Positions 37,814 to 51,176 of a DNA stretch of 64,000 bases are shown piece by piece. The notes beneath the pieces were generated by a model. It worked only from the letters and a program-made list of their open reading frames with translations, was not told the origin of the DNA and did no database searches. The DNA is taken from assembly GCF_014897705.1 (NCBI RefSeq), contig NZ_JABUXV010000014.1, positions 1-64,000 on the forward strand, written 5' to 3'. The translations under genes were made by a program, and so were the position numbers. The stretch's first letter is position 1. Each line of letters begins with the position of its first letter. This DNA comes from Brachybacterium sp. FME24 (lineage in GTDB: Bacteria; Actinomycetota; Actinomycetes; Actinomycetales; Dermabacteraceae).

Positions 37814-39511
37814 TCATGCCCGCGGCGCCGAGTTCGAACTCTTGATCCGAGCGGTCAGCTCTGTGACCTGGTTGAAGATCGCTCGACGCTCCTTCATGAG
37901 CTCACTGATCTTCTTGTTCGCGTGCATCACCGTGGTGTGGTCGCGGCCACCGAACTCCTCACCGATCCGGATCAGCGGCATATCGGTGAGCTCACGGCAG
38001 AGGTACATGCCGATCTGCCGGGCCGAGACCAGCCGACGGGAACGACCGGAGCCGACGATCTCCTCGACCGACAGTCCGAAGTACGTCGCGGTCTGCGCGA
38101 TGATCGTCGACGCCGTGATCTGGGCGCCGTCGTCGTGGGACAGGAGATCCTTCAACACGCTCTCGGCGAGAGTGACATCCATGGGCTGGCGGGACAGGGA
38201 GTGCAGCGCCTGGACCCGGATCAGGGCACCCTCGAGCTCGCGGATGTTGGTCGCGATGTGCGAGGCGATGTACTCGAGCACGTCGTGCGGGACCTCGCCG
38301 GTGTTCTCCTGGGCGACCTTCTTGCGCAGGATCGCGATACGGGTCTCCAGGTCGGGCGGCTGAACGTCGGTCATCAGGCCCATCTCGAAGCGCGACCGCA
38401 TGCGATCCTCGAAGCCGCCCAGCTCCTTCGGGGGCAGATCCGAGGTGATGACGATCTGCTTGTCGGTGTTGTACAGCGTGTTGAACGTGTGGAAGAAGGC
38501 TTCCATCGTCTCCGGTGCCCGCTGCAGGAACTGAATGTCGTCGATGAGCAGGATGTCGATGTCTCGGTAGCGGCGCTGGAACTCCTGGGCCTTGCCGAAC
38601 TGACCGGACTGCACGGAGTTGATGAAGTCGTTGGTGAACTCCTCGGAGTTCACGTAGCGCACCACGACGTCCGGGTAGAGGCTCTGCGCGTAGTGCCCCA
38701 CCGCGTGCAGCAGGTGCGTCTTGCCCAGCCCCGAGCCGCCGTAGATGAACAGGGGGTTGTACGCCTTCGCAGGCGTCTCCGAGACGGCCGACGCCGCAGC
38801 CTGCGCGAAGCGGTTCGAGGAGCCGATCACGAAGGTCTCGAAGGTGTATTTGCCGTTCAGGCGGGAGTCCTCGCCCAGGGTGGAGCGGTCGGTCCGAGCC
38901 GGTCGGCGTGGGGCCGGGCCAGGAGAGGGAGCTGAGGAGCCGGTGAGCGCGGAGAATCCCGCGTAGGCGCTGGGATCGTCGGCTGCGGTGCCGGTGTAGT
39001 CGCTTCCGAGGGAGAAACGATCACTGCTCGAGCTGGTCCCCGCGGAACTCGCGGACGTGTCGCGAGGCAGGACGGCACGACCGGGCTGGTCGTCCGCGGG
39101 CAGCACCGACCCCTTGTCACGACGGAACGAGGTGGTGTGGACGGCCTGCCCGGGAGTTTCCACATCTCTGTCCACACGACGTGCACCGGGGGCATCGAAC
39201 TGCGAGGCCGAGGAGGGGGCTGGCGCCGGATCGTCGGCGTCCTCCCCGAAGAGGGACTCATCGACGGTCACCGCGAACCGCATCTCCTGACCGGTGGCCT
39301 CGCTGAGCGCGGCCTTCAGAGACCCTGCGATCCGGTGCTCGAACAGCTCTTTCGCCGAGGTGGACGGGGCTGCGAGCAGGGCGGTGTCCGCCACCACAGC
39401 CAACGGCTGGGACAGGGTCAGCAGAGCGATCACGCGTTGGGACACGGTGTCGTCACGGCGCAGGGTGTCCAGGGTTCGCTCCCAGATCGCGGCGACGTTC
39501 GCGTCAGACAT
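37814..39511 (-). CDS. dnaA: Chromosomal replication initiator DnaA
   Basis: A 565-residue initiator. Domain I is at 1-85, then a long low-complexity domain II (about 95-220), the AAA+ domain with GGSGLGKTH (Walker A, near 258) and ILLIDDIQF (Walker B), and domain IV with the DnaA signature [11 protein letters not shown]. It recognises DnaA boxes and opens oriC. The ATG at 39511 gives the usual [14 protein letters not shown] start; domain II is longer than in many relatives. Confidence 0.98.
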
Positions 39512-39549
39512 CAGGTTTCTCCGTACGGGATGATCGGCGGTCCAGATAG

Positions 39550-39593
39550 TTTTCCACAATAGCCGGTGCCCTGTGGATCGACGCTGTGGACAA
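39550..39593 (-). promoter_or_regulatory. DnaA boxes upstream of dnaA
   Basis: TTTTCCACA (39550-39558, plus strand), CGATCCACA (minus, 39572-39580) and the exact box TTGTCCACA (minus, 39585-39593) sit 40-80 bp before dnaA, where they would allow autoregulation. The full dnaA-rpmH gap (39512-39974) is 463 bp and otherwise holds the rpmH promoter and leader; no gene is visible in it. Confidence 0.7.
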
Positions 39594-39752
39594 CCGACCA
39601 TGCGGTCTCTGTCTCCGTGATGCGTGACTCCTCGCGGCGGCGACCTCGGGGAAGCAGGGCGGCGGAGGCGGTTCCGCAGGCGCCTGCTGGTGACGAAACG
39701 CCGGTCCGGAGTGAGAATCGGGCCACAACCGGCCCTCCGGAGGCCTCAGCCG

Positions 39753-42917: not shown

Positions 42918-43583
42918 GTGCTGCCCCTGCCCGAATCCCTGCGCCCGTCGGCCGAGCGTCTGTTCGCAGACCGCCTCGACCTGGCGGAGCGCTTCGCGAG
43001 CATGCTCGCGGAGCAGGGCCCCGAGCGCGGCCTCATCGGCCCGCATGAGGTGGAGCGGCTGTGGGAGCGCCATCTGCTGAACTGCGCCCTGATGGTCGAC
43101 GCGATCGACCCATCCACCGGCACCCTGGCCGATGTCGGCTCCGGCGCCGGCCTGCCGGGAGTGGTCATCGCCATCGCCCGGCCGGAGGTGAAGGTGACGC
43201 TGATCGAGACGATGCAGCGCCGCGTCACCTGGCTCGAAGAGGTCGATTCCGAGCTCGGCCTGGGACTGGAGGTGGTGCGTGCGCGCGCCGAGGATCTGCA
43301 CGGACAGCGGTCCTTCGACGTGGTGACCGCCCGTGCGGTCGCGGCGCTGGACAAGCTGGCCCGTTGGACGCTGCCCCTGGTGGCCGACGGCGGAGAGCTG
43401 CTGGCCATGAAGGGCAGCTCGGCCGCTGAAGAAGTGGACAAGGCGGGCAAGGCCCTGCAGAAGCTGGGCGGGGACGATCCTCGCATTGCGCAGTACGGGG
43501 TGGGCGAGGTCGAGGTTCCCACTACAGTGGTCCAAGTGCGTCGCCGAGCACAGGCGACCAGGAAGGGAGAGACACGTGGCTGA
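42918..43583 (+). CDS. rsmG: 16S rRNA (guanine527-N7)-methyltransferase
   Basis: A 221-residue SAM-dependent enzyme that modifies 16S rRNA; loss of such enzymes gives low-level streptomycin resistance. The SAM motif is LADVGSGAGLPGVVIAIARP and the VVRARAEDLHG and TARAVAALDKL motifs follow. The GTG at 42918 lies 8 bp after the jag stop. It ends overlapping the parA start by 8 bp. Confidence 0.95.
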   Translation: MLPLPESLRPSAERLFADRLDLAERFASMLAEQGPERGLIGPHEVERLWERHLLNCALMVDAIDPSTGTLADVGSGAGLPGVVIAIARPEVKVTLIETMQRRVTWLEEVDSELGLGLEVVRARAEDLHGQRSFDVVTARAVAALDKLARWTLPLVADGGELLAMKGSSAAEEVDKAGKALQKLGGDDPRIAQYGVGEVEVPTTVVQVRRRAQATRKGETRG

Positions 43584-44499
43584 CCAGCGCGAAGATTCCT
43601 CCCGGGGGCATGGTGCGATGGAAGATACTCCGCTGATGCGTCAGCTCACCCGGGATCATGCCCGTCGCAAGCAGCTCGAGGGTGTTGATTTCGGGGCACC
43701 GGAGACGACCCGCGTGATCACGATCGCCAACCAGAAGGGCGGAGTCGGCAAGACGTCCACGACCGTGAACCTGGCGGCAGCCCTCTCGATGGGTGGGCTG
43801 CACGTGCTGGTGATCGACGCGGACCCGCAGGGGAACACCTCGACCGCGCTGAGCATCGAGCATCACGCCGAGGTCCCCAGCATGTACGAGGTGCTGGTGG
43901 AATCCGCTCCGCTGGCCGACGTCGTGCAGGACGTGCCCGACATGGAGCGGCTCTCCTGCGCTCCCGCCACGATCCACCTCTCCGGGGCCGAGATCGAGCT
44001 GGTCTCCCTGGTGGCGCGCGAGAACCGGTTGCGCAACGCGATCCGTGACTACCTCGGTCACCGTGAGGACCAGGGCCTGCCGCGCCTGGACTATGTGCTG
44101 ATCGACTGCCCGCCCTCGCTGGGCCTGCTGACCGTGAATGCCCTGGTCGCGGCGCGCGAGGTCCTGATCCCGATCCAGGCCGAGTACTACGCGCTGGAGG
44201 GTCTGTCCCTGCTGCTGAACAACATCGATCTGATCCGCCAGCACCTGAACCCGGAACTGGTGGTCTCCTCGATCATGCTGACCATGTACGACGCCCGAAC
44301 CCGGCTCGCCGCACAGGTCGCCCAGGACGTCCGGGACCATTTCCCGGAACAGACCCTCGCGACGACGATCCCGCGCTCGGTGCGGATCTCGGAGGCGCCG
44401 AGCTACGGCCAGACGGTGCTCACGTACGACCCGGGCTCGAGTGGTGCGCTGGCGTACCGCTCAGCTGCTCATGAACTCACCATTCGCCCCGCCCCATGA
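43576..44499 (+). CDS. parA: Chromosome partitioning ATPase ParA
   Basis: A 307-residue deviant-Walker ATPase. ITIANQKGGVGKTSTT (signature Lys54, Walker Lys59), VIDADPQGN and YVLIDCPPSLG are present. It moves ParB-parS complexes along the nucleoid. The GTG at 43576 has GGAAGGGAGA upstream and overlaps the rsmG end; longer frames run inside rsmG. Its N-terminal 44 residues are longer than in plasmid ParA proteins. Confidence 0.96.
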   Translation: MADQREDSSRGHGAMEDTPLMRQLTRDHARRKQLEGVDFGAPETTRVITIANQKGGVGKTSTTVNLAAALSMGGLHVLVIDADPQGNTSTALSIEHHAEVPSMYEVLVESAPLADVVQDVPDMERLSCAPATIHLSGAEIELVSLVARENRLRNAIRDYLGHREDQGLPRLDYVLIDCPPSLGLLTVNALVAAREVLIPIQAEYYALEGLSLLLNNIDLIRQHLNPELVVSSIMLTMYDARTRLAAQVAQDVRDHFPEQTLATTIPRSVRISEAPSYGQTVLTYDPGSSGALAYRSAAHELTIRPAP

Positions 44500-44587: not shown

Positions 44588-46489
44588 ATGACGCAGAAGC
44601 GAGGACTCGGTCGAGGACTCGGCGCCCTGATCCCGGGTGCAGGGTCGACCCCTGCCCCCGAGCAGGAGCTGCGCACTCGGACGCGCCCGGCGTCCGAGGA
44701 CGAGGAGCCGGCGGCGAGTAACCGGCCGGTCGACATGTTCTTCTCGGGTGAGCAGGCCTCCGCCGACGATGATCGCCCCCAGCGGGAGCGCGCGCGCCGC
44801 CAGGATCTCGCCAGTGCCATGGCCCGCGATGCCGCCCAGCGGCGTGGTCGCGGAGCCCCCGCCCGCAGTACCCCGCGGGGATCGACGTCCACCTCCTCCG
44901 AGGACGCTGAGACCGCGTCGGCGAAGGACGTCGCTGCGGTCAGCACGGAGGCCCCCGAGGAACCCGTGAAGAAGACCTCGACCCGGACTCGTTCGAACCG
45001 TTCGACGACGGGGACGTCGAGCACCACGCGGAAGTCCGGGCCGGCCAAGACTTCCTCGGCCGCATCCGCTGCGGCAGCAGCCGTACCCACCGAGACTGCG
45101 TCGACGCCTGCCGATGAGGTCTCCGCCGAGAAGACCCCATCGACGAAGACCGTGAAGGCCCCGAAAGCTCCGAAGGCGGTGAATGCCTCGAAGTCCCCGT
45201 CGACGACCACACCAGCGCCCAAGGCCTCGGCCTCCAAGCCCACGGCGAGCACCGGCACCAACAGCACCTCCGCAGCGAAGCCCGAAGCGGCCCCGTCGAA
45301 GGATTCCACGTCCGTTTCCCCCGAGGCCTCGAAGAGCGCCGCCGTGACGGCTCTCGAGGATAGCCCCGTGGTCGACGTCGAGGCCGTAGAGCCGGCCCCC
45401 GCACAGTCCGATTCCGGTGAGCAGGAGAGCGCATCGGCCGAGCCGGACATCGCTATCGACTCGCAGAGCGAGGCTGCGACGGCGGCTGAGGTCGACACCG
45501 AAGCTGCGGCAGGCGCCCGGTCCGGTACTGCCGCTGACAGCGGCACGAAGAGTGATGCTGACGCGGTCGTCGCGAGCACGGAGCGCACGGAACCCTCCCT
45601 CGAGGCGGAGAGCCCCAGTGGCTACGCACGACAGGACCTGGTCAGTGTCCCCGGCGCTGAGTTCGCAGAGATCCCGATCCATGAGATTCGGGAGAACCCG
45701 CGCAACCCCCGCATGATGTTCGATGACGACGAGCTCGACGAGCTGGCGTACTCACTGCGTGAAGTGGGGGTGCTGCAGCCGGTCGTGGTCCGTCCGATTC
45801 CGGTCACGGAGGAGGGCGAGTCCTTCGAGCTCGTCATGGGCGAGCGCCGTTGGCGTGCAGCTCGCCGTGCCGAACTCACGTCGATCCCTGCGATCATCCG
45901 GGAGACCAGCGATGACGATCTCCTGCGAGATGCACTGCTGGAGAACCTTCACCGTACGCAGCTGAATCCACTGGAAGAGGCGAACGCGTACCAGCAGCTC
46001 CTGGAGGACTTCGGCTGCACGCAGGACGAGCTGGGCGAGCGCATCGGTCGCTCGCGCCCGCAGATCACCAACACACTGCGCCTGCTGCGCCTGCCTGCTC
46101 TCGTGCAACGTCGATTGGCGAGCGGGGCCCTCAGCGCCGGGCATTCGCGCGCACTCCTCTCCCTCGACGACCCCACGCTGATGGAAGAGCTTGCCCAGCG
46201 CATCGTCTCCGAGGGGCTCTCGGTCCGCGCTGTGGAACGACTCGTCGCCAGTGGTGGCCAGCAGCAGACCAACACCCGTCCGGCCCGTCGGACCACCTAC
46301 GATCCCCATGTCGTGGATCTGACCAGCCGACTGTCGAATCGCTTGGAGACTCCGGTGCGCATCGACGTCGGCAAGCGAAAGGGCCGGATCACGCTCGAGT
46401 TCACGAACCTCGAGGATCTCGACCGTCTGATCGAGGGCATGGGGCTGGATGCCCCACCGGCCGAGAGCGACGGACCGTCGGAGGAGTGA
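44588..46489 (+). CDS. parB: Chromosome partitioning protein ParB with very long linker
   Basis: A 633-residue ParB. The N-terminal KRGLGRGLGALIP box (residues 4-16) is the usual ParA-contact region. Then come about 330 residues of Ala/Ser/Thr/Lys/Pro-rich low-complexity sequence (20-350) before the CTPase domain (353-430, with GERRWRAAR at 418-426), the parS-binding HTH (about 462-505, EERIGRSRPQITNTLRLL-like) and a C-terminal dimer domain (575-620). Typical chromosomal ParB proteins are 300-400 residues. A terminator follows, then the parS-like array. Confidence 0.96.
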   Translation: MTQKRGLGRGLGALIPGAGSTPAPEQELRTRTRPASEDEEPAASNRPVDMFFSGEQASADDDRPQRERARRQDLASAMARDAAQRRGRGAPARSTPRGSTSTSSEDAETASAKDVAAVSTEAPEEPVKKTSTRTRSNRSTTGTSSTTRKSGPAKTSSAASAAAAAVPTETASTPADEVSAEKTPSTKTVKAPKAPKAVNASKSPSTTTPAPKASASKPTASTGTNSTSAAKPEAAPSKDSTSVSPEASKSAAVTALEDSPVVDVEAVEPAPAQSDSGEQESASAEPDIAIDSQSEAATAAEVDTEAAAGARSGTAADSGTKSDADAVVASTERTEPSLEAESPSGYARQDLVSVPGAEFAEIPIHEIRENPRNPRMMFDDDELDELAYSLREVGVLQPVVVRPIPVTEEGESFELVMGERRWRAARRAELTSIPAIIRETSDDDLLRDALLENLHRTQLNPLEEANAYQQLLEDFGCTQDELGERIGRSRPQITNTLRLLRLPALVQRRLASGALSAGHSRALLSLDDPTLMEELAQRIVSEGLSVRAVERLVASGGQQQTNTRPARRTTYDPHVVDLTSRLSNRLETPVRIDVGKRKGRITLEFTNLEDLDRLIEGMGLDAPPAESDGPSEE

Positions 46490-47150: not shown

Positions 47151-49221
47151 GTTTCACGAGGAACAGGTGATGCAGCAGTTCCGTTTGCCGTGAAACATCC
47201 CGGGTTCGTGTCAGCACCCCGTCACGTCGCCGGGTGACAGGACCACCCGAGCTCAGTATTCGGTCGTCCGGATCTGATGAGCAGCCTCTTCCTGTCGAGG
47301 GACCCGGCTTGAAACAGGCCAGTTTCCACCTGGTTCCACGTGAAGCGCTGCTGATCTTACTGTCCGGTCATCGTCATGAATCTTCTTTCCGACTGCTGAA
47401 TCCCGTGATCCGTACACCTTCTGAGGCCGGCCTGAGGGAGATCCCATCCGTTGCCTGCATGGTTTCCCGTGAAACGGCCCTGCCTGCTGTGCCCGGTAGT
47501 CCCTAGGCATGACGTGACGCGGGCACTTTGCTGCAGTGAACGTGTGAGTTTCACGTGGCACTGACGCTCTTGCACACGGCATTGCACGACGGTACGGAGC
47601 ATCGAAGCGCAGGAAGTTCGTGATCGGAATGCCCGATCGCAGATTCGGCACATGGTTTCCCGTGAAACGTGTGAACTGTCGGGATCGGTGGATTCGCGGG
47701 GTGACTGCTACTGCGGTCAGTGCCGCTGCGTAGTCAGTGGAAGCACCTGGGGCCAGCTCCCCGCGGCGACTACGTCGACTCGGGAAGGTCGATTGCTGCG
47801 TTCCACGTGAAACGACCTTCGCGAATACCGAGCGCGGCGCTCACAGATGCGTCCGGACGCTGGTGAGATGACGTACCGGACGAGCGATCGGACCCCACGA
47901 ACGGGCGACAGACCATCTCACAGGCGCGACGGTAGTCGACGGACTTGAGAATTGGGGCCGCCGCGCGTGGCGGGAGTTGTTCGTGGACCCACCTGAGTTT
48001 CACGGGAAACGCGTGCCTTTGATACTGGAGACTCAGGCCGTGCCCCGCACGGAGAGAAGGGAGTGGCGCACTTCGATGGACAGGATGCGACGTGTTGAGT
48101 CGCTGGTCGCGGTGTGCCGTGGTCGATCCGGTCCACGGGTAGAGGAAGCGGCCGGGAGACCTGACTCGATTCGCGTACAGCAGATGGGCCGGCTCGCCGG
48201 AAGAGTCTGCGTAGTACTTCAATCCTTGGAGCAGATGGTGCGAACGCTCGGAGCCCGAGAGACTTGGGAGACCGTGCTCCCTGAATGTTTCACGGGGAAC
48301 ATGCCTTCTAGTCGCAGTTGACGTCAGGTGACTTGCCGAGCGGCCCGACGTCGGCTGCCGTGGACGGCCGGTGAGAGGGACCGACACGACCGACGCTCTC
48401 TGCGTTGCCTCCGCCCCCTGCGCGATCTACGGCGATGACTCTTTGCGTTGGTGCCACGTGAAACTGCATGAGGCGTCATGGGCGTCGTTCCACGTGAAAC
48501 AGATTCCCGTATCGACGAACCGTCGTCGTTCCCCCTGCCACGGAGTAGGCAGAGTGAGGGCGAATCATCAGCTCATGCGTGTACGACCCGATACGACGCG
48601 ACGTCGACGCGGTACTCCACCGGGTTTCACGTGCAACGAGCTCGGTTCCGAACAACTGGTCGAGACACCGGTGAGGGGGTAGCTCAACACGGAAGAACCG
48701 CCAGCACAGAGGAGTTCTGCCGGTCCGATCGGTCAGGGGCTCCCGAGCTGCCTTCGCTCCCGCCCAAGCTCCCGCATAGAATCGAGAAGCAGTGTTTCAC
48801 GCGAAACAAGAGCATCCTGTGAGCTCCGGGCCGGGCCCGCTGCCTAGTCCGGTGCAGCCCTGATCTGGCACGTCCGGCCTGCCTGGATCCATCCCTGGTG
48901 TCGCCTGGGTCAGCTGTGATCTGCTCATCGAGGCATTCCGCTTGGACACCGAGACGGACGCAAGCGCAGGTTTCACGAGAAACCTCGCGGAGTGACCCGA
49001 GTTGCGAGACCAGGGGATGGTGAACAGAAGGTGCACAGCCGGTGGCCTGTTAGGTGTGGCGCTGCACCTCGGCTCGCCAAGCATGCTGAACGCAGAGTCA
49101 CTGAGCGAGGCTCGTTGCGGTCAGCATGGAGGCCGGCTGTTCCGACACGACAACAGACGACGGTCGAGCTGTGCACGCGAGCACGTCGTTGGCCCGCCTC
49201 AGCCTGAGGTCCACGTGGAAC
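47151..49221. repeat. parS: Array of 15 parS-like sites
   Basis: Copies of the ParB site GTTTCACGTGAAAC. Thirteen of 14 matches: 47462, 47655, 47800, 47997, 48487, 48624, 48794, 48970 (start positions). Twelve of 14: 47151, 47183, 47333, 47548, 48287, 48451. Eleven of 14: 49208. Gaps are 32-290 bp, mean about 147. None is an exact copy; mismatches fall at different places. None of comparable quality was noticed elsewhere in the window. The universal parS sequence is established knowledge; that these sites bind ParB is inferred. Confidence 0.88.
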
Positions 49222-49279: not shown

Positions 49280-49512
49280 TGTGGAAAACTCCGAAAGCAC
49301 GGCGTGACGCGCATCACACCTTGTGTCACTCGTACAGTAACCCCCTCCGCGGGCAACGACCCCAGTATCGGACATCGATGCAGGTCAACCCGAGGGAGAT
49401 GGTCCACGGTGAGACTGTTCCGGCATTCAGTGGTCCACACTCGGTTGTGGATAACTGTGTGGATAGAGCCGTGCACCCTTGTGGGTAAGACTGTGGATAA
49501 CTCTGTGGACAC
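49280..49512. other. DnaA-box cluster at the end of the parS-like array
   Basis: Within 233 bp: TTTTCCACA (minus, 49280-49288), TGGTCCACA (plus, 49431-49439), exact TTATCCACA (minus, 49446-49454), CTATCCACA (minus, 49458-49466), TTACCCACA (minus, 49480-49488), exact TTATCCACA (minus, 49492-49500) and GTGTCCACA (minus, 49504-49512). Five of them lie in the same orientation within 67 bp, denser than in the dnaA-dnaN gap. Confidence 0.75.
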
Positions 49513-49649: not shown

Positions 49650-50048
49650 TCATCCGTCGGAGGGGCCGAACTCCGCCGCCACGACATGTTTGGGCAGTGC
49701 CCCGCTGCGTCGATGGGTGAGCGCCCACGGCCCCGGAAGGACGACCGCCTCTCCGGACACCGTGGCCCCTCTCAGATCCGGGACCCAGAGCCCGGAGGCC
49801 TCTCCCGGCACCTGGTCGGAGCGCCCTACGAAGCGCAGCCAGGTCGGGACGACCTCGACATCCAGCAGGTCGAGAAGGGCGTCGTCAGCATCCTGGAGGA
49901 GAACTGCGTGCACGGCCTCCCCCCAGCGCCTGCTCAGTTCCCGCAGGATGGTGGCGGCCGGTTTCGCCGGGCCAGCCCAATCAGCCGTCACCAGGACGAC
50001 CGCGACCGGCCCGAGGCTCCGTGCCCCGGGGCTCGCGGACGTGTTCAC
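49650..50048 (-). CDS. Thioredoxin-like protein lacking the CxxC cysteines
   Basis: A 132-residue protein directly after trxB. Residues 13-75 follow the thioredoxin fold (VAVVLVTADWAGPAKPAATIL...VEVVPTWLRFVGR), with the cis-Pro at 68, but the active site WCGPC reads WAGPA (Trp24-Ala28), so both redox cysteines are replaced by Ala. It cannot act as a classical thioredoxin. The GTG at 50048 has GAGGAGG upstream, so the gene appears intact. It may be a binding or scaffold protein; another trxA must serve TrxB. Confidence 0.75.
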   Translation of the reverse strand: MNTSASPGARSLGPVAVVLVTADWAGPAKPAATILRELSRRWGEAVHAVLLQDADDALLDLLDVEVVPTWLRFVGRSDQVPGEASGLWVPDLRGATVSGEAVVLPGPWALTHRRSGALPKHVVAAEFGPSDG

Positions 50049-50078: not shown

Positions 50079-51176
50079 TCAGTTCGCTGCCGGCTGCGCC
50101 GCGGCGGGCAGGTCGACCATCCCCGTTGCCTTGGCCTTCTCGTCGGCCAGCGCCGCCTGGTCGGTCAGCCAGCGCTCGGCATCCAGCGCCGCCTGGCAGC
50201 CGGTCCCCGCGGCGGTGATGGCCTGGCGATAGGTGTGGTCCACGACGTCCCCTGCGGCGAACACGCCGGGGACAGAGGTGTAGGTGGAACGTCCCTGGCA
50301 CACGATGTAGCCCTGCTCATCGAGCTCGAGCTTGCCCCGCACCAGATCGGTGCGCGGGAGATGCCCGATCGCTTCGAAGACGGCGGTGGTCGGCATCACG
50401 CGCTCCTGTCCGGTGACGGTGTCGCGCAGGGTCACGGACTCGACCTGGTCGCTCCCGTTGATGCTCACGACCTCGCTGTTCCACGCGAACTGCAGCTTCG
50501 GATCCGCCTCGGCCCGTCGAGCCATGATCTTCGAGGCGCGCAGCGCGTCGCGGCGGTGCACGAGCGTGACGGTCTTCCCGAAGCGGGTCAGGAACGTCGC
50601 CTCTTCGACGGCGCTGTCCCCGCCCCCGACCACCACGATGTCCTGGTCCTTGAAGAAGAATCCGTCGCACGTCGCGCACCAGCTGACGCCCTTGCCCGAG
50701 AGCTGCTTCTCCCCATCGATCCCGAGTTCCCGATAGGCGGACCCGGTCGAGAGGATGAGTGTCTTCGCGCGGTACACGGTGCCGTCATCCAGGACGACGG
50801 TCTTGATCTCGCCCTCGAGCTGGAGGTCCACGGCGTCGTCGTACACGATCTCGGCGCCGAATCGCTCGGCCTGCTCCTGCATCGTGGTCATCAGCTCGGG
50901 ACCCTGGATGCCCTGGGCGAAGCCCGGGAAGTTCTCCACGTCCGTGGTGGTCATCAGAGCGCCGCCGGCGTCGAGCGCCCCGGCGATCACGATCGGCTTC
51001 ATCTCTGCGCGCGCGGTATAGATCGCAGCGGTGTACCCGGCCGGTCCGGAACCGACGATGACGACCTCGTGGATCGTCTCGTCCTTCGTCGCCTCGGTGG
51101 CGACGGCCGGTGCGGTGCGAGCCGCCGGAGCAGCGGTGCCGCCGAGGATGTTGAGGGCCTGGATGGGCTGCGACAT
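50079..51176 (-). CDS. trxB: Thioredoxin reductase
   Basis: A 365-residue flavoenzyme that passes electrons from NADPH to thioredoxin. FAD motif GSGPAGYTAAIYTARA (about 42-57), redox CATC (Cys167, Cys170), NADPH motif GGGDSAVEEA and the C-terminal GVFAAGDVVDHTYRQAITAAGTGCQAALDAE are complete. It carries an N-terminal Ala/Thr-rich extension of about 33 residues compared with typical TrxB. A degenerate thioredoxin-like gene follows 30 bp downstream. Confidence 0.96.
   Translation of the reverse strand: MSQPIQALNILGGTAAPAARTAPAVATEATKDETIHEVVIVGSGPAGYTAAIYTARAEMKPIVIAGALDAGGALMTTTDVENFPGFAQGIQGPELMTTMQEQAERFGAEIVYDDAVDLQLEGEIKTVVLDDGTVYRAKTLILSTGSAYRELGIDGEKQLSGKGVSWCATCDGFFFKDQDIVVVGGGDSAVEEATFLTRFGKTVTLVHRRDALRASKIMARRAEADPKLQFAWNSEVVSINGSDQVESVTLRDTVTGQERVMPTTAVFEAIGHLPRTDLVRGKLELDEQGYIVCQGRSTYTSVPGVFAAGDVVDHTYRQAITAAGTGCQAALDAERWLTDQAALADEKAKATGMVDLPAAAQPAAN

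Follow-up and report, generated by a model that had tools for sequence, protein, structure and literature searches.

We found a compact array of parS-like sites between parB and trxB in Brachybacterium, and the reading that best explains the observations as a whole, with a probability of about two in three, is a centromere array of moderate loading sites held under a ceiling on their strength. A pattern scan of the 64-kb window (the whole stretch of DNA analysed) with up to three mismatches to GTTTCACGTGAAAC located 15 sites at 47151-49221, eight with one mismatch, six with two, one with three and none perfect, exactly as listed in the first-pass annotation. The mean for such sites in 100 dinucleotide shuffles was 0.88 per window and the largest number was 6, so that the earlier proposal of a compact centromere array was borne out as far as a compact parS array is concerned. 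The mean spacing of 146.9 bp reproduced the earlier estimate of about 147 bp, and the spacing was irregular because single gaps ranged from 32 to 290 bp. A search of the whole 4.8-Mb genome (67 contigs, 99.99% complete) placed all 14 sites with up to two mismatches inside the array and found no 0-2-mismatch site outside it, the three-mismatch search being confined to the 64-kb window; equally good sites at this density elsewhere, which the first-pass annotation had named as a refutation, were thus not found. These 15 sites in 2.1 kb of the parB-trxB spacer are the sole cluster found genome-wide at up to two mismatches.

For description of the sites, the halves were classed as S (perfect, GTTTCAC), M (mild, GTTCCAC), W (any other single change) and D (two or more changes). 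Exactly one half was perfect in 13 of the 15 sites, all read on the plus strand. The left half was perfect in the two-mismatch sites 1 (GTTTCACGAGGAAC, 47151..47164), 5 (GTTTCACGTGGCAC, 47548..47561) and 9 (GTTTCACGGGGAAC, 48287..48300) and in the one-mismatch sites 8 (GTTTCACGGGAAAC, 47997..48010), 12 (GTTTCACGTGCAAC, 48624..48637), 13 (GTTTCACGCGAAAC, 48794..48807) and 14 (GTTTCACGAGAAAC, 48970..48983). The right half was perfect in the two-mismatch sites 2 (GTTTGCCGTGAAAC, 47183..47196) and 10 (GTGCCACGTGAAAC, 48451..48464) and in four one-mismatch sites, namely 4 and 6 (both GTTTCCCGTGAAAC, 47462..47475 and 47655..47668) and 7 and 11 (both GTTCCACGTGAAAC, 47800..47813 and 48487..48500), the last two with a mild left half. 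Neither half was perfect in site 3 (GTTCCACGTGAAGC, 47333..47346, two mismatches) and site 15 (GGTCCACGTGGAAC, 49208..49221, three mismatches). Across this array and those of relatives, the perfect half tended slightly to be the right one in the left part and the left one at the right end (permutation P 0.016), a weak trend that was not used as evidence.

The array lies in the chromosomal par region

Profile matches identified dnaA, yidC, jag, rsmG, parA and parB to the left of the array and trxB to the right, the scores of jag and parA being below the respective NCBIfam cut-offs. The dnaA gene (37814..39601, minus strand; TIGR00362, 486 bits, over cut-off) lies some 7.5 kb to the left of the array and marks the origin region of the chromosome. 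The parA gene (43486..44499, plus strand; start codon uncertain; ParA-type NCBIfam matches) stands directly before parB (44588..46489, plus strand; 633 aa from the predicted start; TIGR00180, 182 bits, over cut-off), and trxB (50079..51176, minus strand; TIGR01292, 391 bits, over cut-off) is the conserved right boundary of the spacer. As in a chromosomal centromere, parA and parB are near the sites, and the 14-bp sites are far over chance in the dnaA region. The parS cluster between parB and trxB is therefore the probable centromere of the Brachybacterium chromosome, and judging from the sequence this putative ParB centromere is very probably functional.

The likeness to a plasmid partition locus suggested by the first-pass annotation had to be abandoned, since the array sits in a chromosomal dnaA-yidC-jag-rsmG-parA-parB-trxB region that was the same in all 43 family genomes analysed, with the same chromosomal arrangement in single-contig genomes such as G002. 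A plasmid origin was rejected by the synteny with dnaA, yidC, rsmG and trxB, a setting that is not that of a plasmid partition locus. The accompanying view that chromosomal parS sites are usually widely spread needed correction, since clustering within 5-40 kb is described as common to most bacteria (PMC8357415) and arrays of this family normally sit between parB and trxB.

The next ORF considered after the parB stop (46489) starts at 49650 and encodes 132 aa with no match in NCBIfam or Pfam, and the ~3.2 kb between them were gene-free, as previously noted, as far as the Pfam, NCBIfam and Rfam tests reach. Hidden genes or RNAs were rejected on these tests: none of ten ORFs in or beside the spacer matched Pfam at 0.01, the parB-trxB spacer gave no Rfam match, and spacer identity was only about 0.5 (0.48-0.55) in 13 of 14 aligned genome pairs, the exception being the near pair G034/G013 (spacer identity 0.80, site identity 0.98). 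At the cut used, 445 of 469 Brachybacterium sites had no ungapped flank match in another genome. A longer motif was also rejected, as the flanks showed weak preferences at positions -2 and -1 alone.

Five DnaA-box-like 9-mers with up to one mismatch (49280..49500, minus strand) lie 3' of the array, and at least two follow it in 43 of 43 loci examined; this cluster may represent oriC, or else a site that titrates DnaA and is coupled to the centromere. The spacer from dnaA to the next ORF, presumed to be dnaN by its position, is only ~170 bp long and holds two boxes. Cumulative GC skew, followed in G002 and G037 for 200 kb on either side of parB, climbed to the par region and then dropped, giving a maximum where a minimum is usual; it was sharp near parB in G002, whereas in G037 it was a broad plateau that reached from roughly -15 to +100 kb.

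Arrays largely devoid of perfect sites are conserved in Brachybacterium

ParB was found in 44 of the 47 family genomes, with a weak match in G030. From 38 Brachybacterium genomes we analysed 34, dropping G027, G029 and G032 (no ParB match) and G030 (weak match; nine sites). Nine arrays from five other genera (G038-G046, here called the sister genera) brought the set to 43, the window included; the array of G028 was counted although its ParB frame is broken, and L066 was omitted as a second contig of G043 with the same locus. The parB-trxB spacer carries an array in 43 of 43 genomes analysed, so compactness is ordinary in this family; the most distant genome, G044, has one additional site 1007 bp before the parB stop. 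Family arrays hold 10-18 sites at up to three mismatches (10 to 17 in Brachybacterium, 11-18 in the other genera), and 9-18 sites with 0-2 mismatches were counted in 35 of the 38 Brachybacterium genomes. The widest of the 34 Brachybacterium arrays (L055, from G017) spans 4.3 kb, with ~8.5 kb from parB to the trxB match.

Only 5 of 469 sites were perfect in the 34 Brachybacterium arrays, versus 55 of 126 in the nine sister-genus arrays. G007, which lies inside the genus on the tree yet keeps perfect sites, accounts for four and G020 for one, leaving 32 of 34 arrays without any. In an exact genome-wide search across the order, 317 of 396 genomes had a perfect site; those without one included 26 of the 28 Brachybacterium genomes drawn and 53 of 361 genomes outside the family. 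Among these 53, 23 were examined at one mismatch, of which 19 had such sites, and 13 at two; g28 and most g39 genomes had mainly copies of one sequence among the matches listed. The lack of perfect sites is therefore not unique to Brachybacterium. The pairwise-balanced make-up described below was seen only in Brachybacterium, pairing having been tested within the family alone.

Two further observations concern other families of the order. All three genomes tested from family f8 (G053, G070, G111) had no parS site with 0-1 mismatch anywhere, which may mean either that ParB recognises another sequence or that the system has been lost. G145 (family f4, no ScpA match) had nine one-mismatch parS-like sites scattered, unclustered, over six contigs.

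Half-sites are paired non-randomly in Brachybacterium

Halves were re-paired within each genome 4000 times. Five combinations fell short of expectation in Brachybacterium, namely SS (5 observed, 56.1 expected), SM (16 and 44.6), MD (14 and 17.8), WW (27 and 62.1) and WD (14 and 50.6), and four exceeded it, namely SW (213 and 122.8), SD (99 and 58.5), MM (18 and 10.1) and MW (63 and 46.4); the three-mismatch cut affects the D classes and to a lesser degree WW, a limit that the permutation keeps approximately. In the sister genera, by contrast, no class was clearly off chance (SS 55 vs 58.8, SM 27 vs 22.6; lowest one-sided P 0.08). A second test without G007, G028 and G034 gave the same picture (SS 1 vs 48.3, SM 11 vs 38.4). 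When the tree was divided into seven groups, of which B and E are not monophyletic, every group showed depletion of SS and excess of SW, but G007 did not; SM depletion failed in group B (3 vs 2.3), and most of the MM excess traced to group C (11 of the 18 sites, with 7 vs ~5.4 outside it). Since M avoids an S partner but is favoured beside W, one fixed preference does not explain the pairing. The commonest combination was GTTTCCCGTGAAAC together with its reverse complement (86 of 469), and two GTTTCCC halves occurred together once against 10.7 expected.

After correction for local base composition, the log10 enrichments in Brachybacterium without G007 were 5.53 for S+GTTTCCC, 4.98 for S+GTTTCGC, 4.83 for M+GTTTCCC, 4.54 for MM, 4.36 for SM, 3.94 for SS (one site) and 3.86 for GTTTCCC+GTTTCCC (one site). 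The order was reversed in the sister genera (SS 5.55, SM 4.91, S+GTTTCCC 4.14). By genome, S+GTTTCCC exceeded SM in 26 Brachybacterium genomes, with the reverse in 2 and a tie in 6; in the sister genera the corresponding numbers were 1, 6 and 2.

ParB keeps its specificity residues and carries a long N-terminal extension

R173 and G201 (Caulobacter numbering) were present in ParB, both in the alignment with Caulobacter and in that of the 43 genomes (G201 being unreadable in the broken frame of G028); residues were numbered from the distances between the four that PMC7383237 names. Residue 184 was R or K in Brachybacterium as well as in sister genera with perfect sites, and Brachybacterium has T at residue 179, where the other genera have T, S or M; PMC7383237 calls Lys or Arg at either of these two positions permissive for Noc-type recognition. 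A switch in ParB specificity was rejected because R173 and G201 are unchanged. Noc and Noc sites (A at position 1, C at position 6; Q173, R201) were rejected as well, with G at position 1 in 465 of 469 sites.

The first 350 aa of ParB form an extension rich in Ala, Ser, Thr and Pro (44588-45637), and the conserved core begins at 45638. By predicted start codons, the extension measures 247 aa in G007 and 293-480 aa in the remaining 33 Brachybacterium genomes; it is 177-238 aa long in eight of the nine sister-genus genomes, the exception being G042 with 401 aa and seven perfect sites. We regard a contribution of the long extension to the strength ceiling as doubtful.

An intermediate site strength probably accounts for the pairing

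It is rather likely that sites in Brachybacterium are held near an optimum of intermediate total strength; neither avoidance of the palindrome nor a simple switch of specificity fits the half pairing as well. The number of perfect sites on its own leaves the matter of a ceiling undecided, because 7.4 would be expected if zero and one tolerated mismatch were equally fit and 5 were seen in the 34 arrays; the count without G007 is more telling, with 7.2 and 1 (P 0.006, phylogeny not corrected). Accordingly, the idea of selection for many moderate sites, raised in the first-pass annotation, gained from the non-random pairing of halves in 34 genomes, while its argument from missing perfect sites is no proof when taken alone. 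The ceiling is favoured because perfect halves are less often paired with GTTCCAC, the mildest change in the sister genera, than with changes that are costlier there, and neither a floor alone nor a plateau yields this scarcity. The ranking of S over M was taken from the sister genera only. The reference palindrome for Pseudomonas ParB is given as GTTCCACGTGGAAC inside 16 bp, i.e. M+M (PMC4368675), so M may not be weaker than S for every ParB; if M equalled S for the Brachybacterium ParB, the missing depletion of MM would argue against the ceiling. We therefore lowered our confidence in an intermediate optimum slightly, from likely to rather likely, since the Pseudomonas affinity scale does not rank mild below strong. 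For the same ParB, one intact arm is described as binding better than two changed arms, with the CACGTG core mattering most (PMC4368675); GTTTCCC disrupts this core. Taken together, the pattern suggests that evolution is able to keep centromere sites under full strength.

Three other explanations were weighed against this optimum. On a relaxed plateau, one mismatch would be neutral and perfect sites would be rare through high G+C and through the much larger number of possible one-mismatch sequences, with no selection against strong sites. The spacer G+C of 0.61-0.69 and the similar enrichment of perfect and tolerated one-mismatch sites over 34 genomes (ratio 0.65; 0-1.9 when genomes were bootstrapped) agree with this, but G+C alone is insufficient because G040, at a locus G+C of 0.671, has 9 of 18 sites perfect, and the single perfect site left without G007 falls short of the number expected. 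The plateau further predicts that, after base-composition correction, perfect+mild should be at least as enriched as perfect+weak, whereas it was ~15 times less enriched than perfect+GTTTCCC, and 26 of the 28 genomes that differ (six tie) place S+GTTTCCC above SM; we consider the plateau unlikely. ParB could also have shifted to an asymmetric specificity, preferring a hybrid of a parS half and a half with a Noc-like C at position 6, with GTTTCCCGTGAAAC as the true optimum. This would suit the frequency of GTTTCCCGTGAAAC and its reverse complement noted above, the permissive Arg/Lys at 184 (PMC7383237) and the near-uniform one-mismatch arrays of some other genera. It is nevertheless quite improbable, as positions 173 and 201 carry the R and G of ParB proteins, R/K at 184 is shared with the sister genera that have perfect sites, changes at positions 2 and 4 also beat the perfect site in enrichment (one perfect site), and paired GTTTCCC halves are nearly absent.

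Avoidance of the palindrome as DNA, through cruciform formation, a restriction enzyme for CACGTG or another DNA-binding protein, would explain why perfect palindromes are rare in Brachybacterium. We judge it highly improbable, given that GTTCCACGTGGAAC, with the same CACGTG core, was not depleted (18 vs 8.9 or 10.1 in the two tests, though outside group C 7 vs ~5.4) and that perfect palindromes are tolerated in the sister genera and G007.

SMC-ScpAB is not detected in most of the family

A profile search of the window genome gave no ScpA match and a best SMC score of 26.3 bits against a cut-off of 567, so the genome lacks the detectable SMC and ScpA that would mark a loading platform for SMC-ScpAB, and the array sites would not serve the usual SMC-loading task. 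Neither SMC over cut-off nor ScpA was found in 46 of 47 family genomes, five of the 47 being <90% complete or >5% contaminated; G044 alone has both. A review places Smc, ScpA and ScpB in nearly all actinobacteria (PMC4255298), and the open-access literature searched contained no report of condensin loss in this family. Most of one Actinobacteria family thus seems to segregate its chromosomes without SMC-ScpAB.

Condensin loss as the sole cause of the missing perfect sites is contradicted by the sister genera, and it is at most permissive because sister genera without condensin keep perfect sites; we consider even this permissive role rather unlikely. In the order outside the family, 10 of the 20 genomes that lacked ScpA (those absent from the ScpA matches) had no perfect parS, versus 43 of 341 with ScpA (Fisher 1.2e-4, not corrected for phylogeny). 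All ten belong to family f4, three of them being <1 Mb, and the Fisher value was 0.004 when those three were removed. In B. subtilis with several parS sites, raised Smc levels are described as disturbing folding (PMC8357415). With the SMC client apparently absent in Brachybacterium, strong sites would be without one benefit.

A proposed mechanism

From these features we infer binding, clamp loading and the cause of the ceiling as follows. Each site would bind one ParB dimer; at most sites the perfect half would anchor one subunit and the weakened half would engage the second part-time, so that ParB-CTP clamps would close and be released at each site at no more than a moderate rate. A row of many adjacent loaders would then build a ParB zone, and ParA would pull such zones apart. 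Selection in Brachybacterium may impose both a ceiling and a floor on total strength, and in the sister genera it may favour full-strength sites. In the model proposed for B. subtilis ParB, clamp closure requires engagement of both half-sites, after which the clamp is freed by a steric clash (PMC8494293). When DNA was held under force in magnetic tweezers, B. subtilis ParB condensed molecules with 7 to 26 sites but failed on those with 1, 2 or 4, a failure that the authors ascribed to the assay (PMC8299390).

Comparison with known systems

The strength of parS is difficult to study apart from the two tasks of the site, which are ParA-driven segregation and the loading of SMC. In the Brachybacterium clade the SMC-loading job is apparently gone, and G007 and the sister genera are built-in controls, so the determinants of optimal ParB loading-site strength become testable, as do separate roles of the half-sites, which the steric-clash clamp model would allow (PMC8494293). 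No report of the Brachybacterium array or of half-site pairing was present in the open-access literature searched.

Corynebacterium glutamicum has a comparable actinobacterial ParABS system whose ten sites form a single cluster, nine being intergenic (PMC7083940). That cluster, however, spans 35 kb at a distance of 73 kb from oriC, its sites are all identical, the C. glutamicum ParB recruits SMC, and sites with at least three mismatches recruited no ParB (PMC7083940), whereas Brachybacterium has mixed site sequences within 2.1 kb and no SMC or ScpA match. The sister genera share the parB-trxB spacer, R173 and G201, and eight of nine are without condensin, but close to half of their sites are perfect and their halves are paired as by chance. 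In g28 and most g39 genomes examined, perfect sites are likewise missing and the sites clustered within a few kb; unlike in Brachybacterium, most are identical GTTCCACGTGAAAC among the matches listed, G241 (g39) having GTTTCCCGTGAAAC instead, and the eight examined genomes with GTTCCACGTGAAAC have ScpA. In Bacillus subtilis, the commonly used optimal site TGTTCCACGTGAAACA also joins a perfect half to a mild half (PMC8299390), the very combination depleted in Brachybacterium, and the sites are spread over hundreds of kb (PMC8357415). The array is thus ordinary in its place and probable function, and what sets it apart is a set of largely asymmetric sites of apparently intermediate strength in a condensin-free genus.
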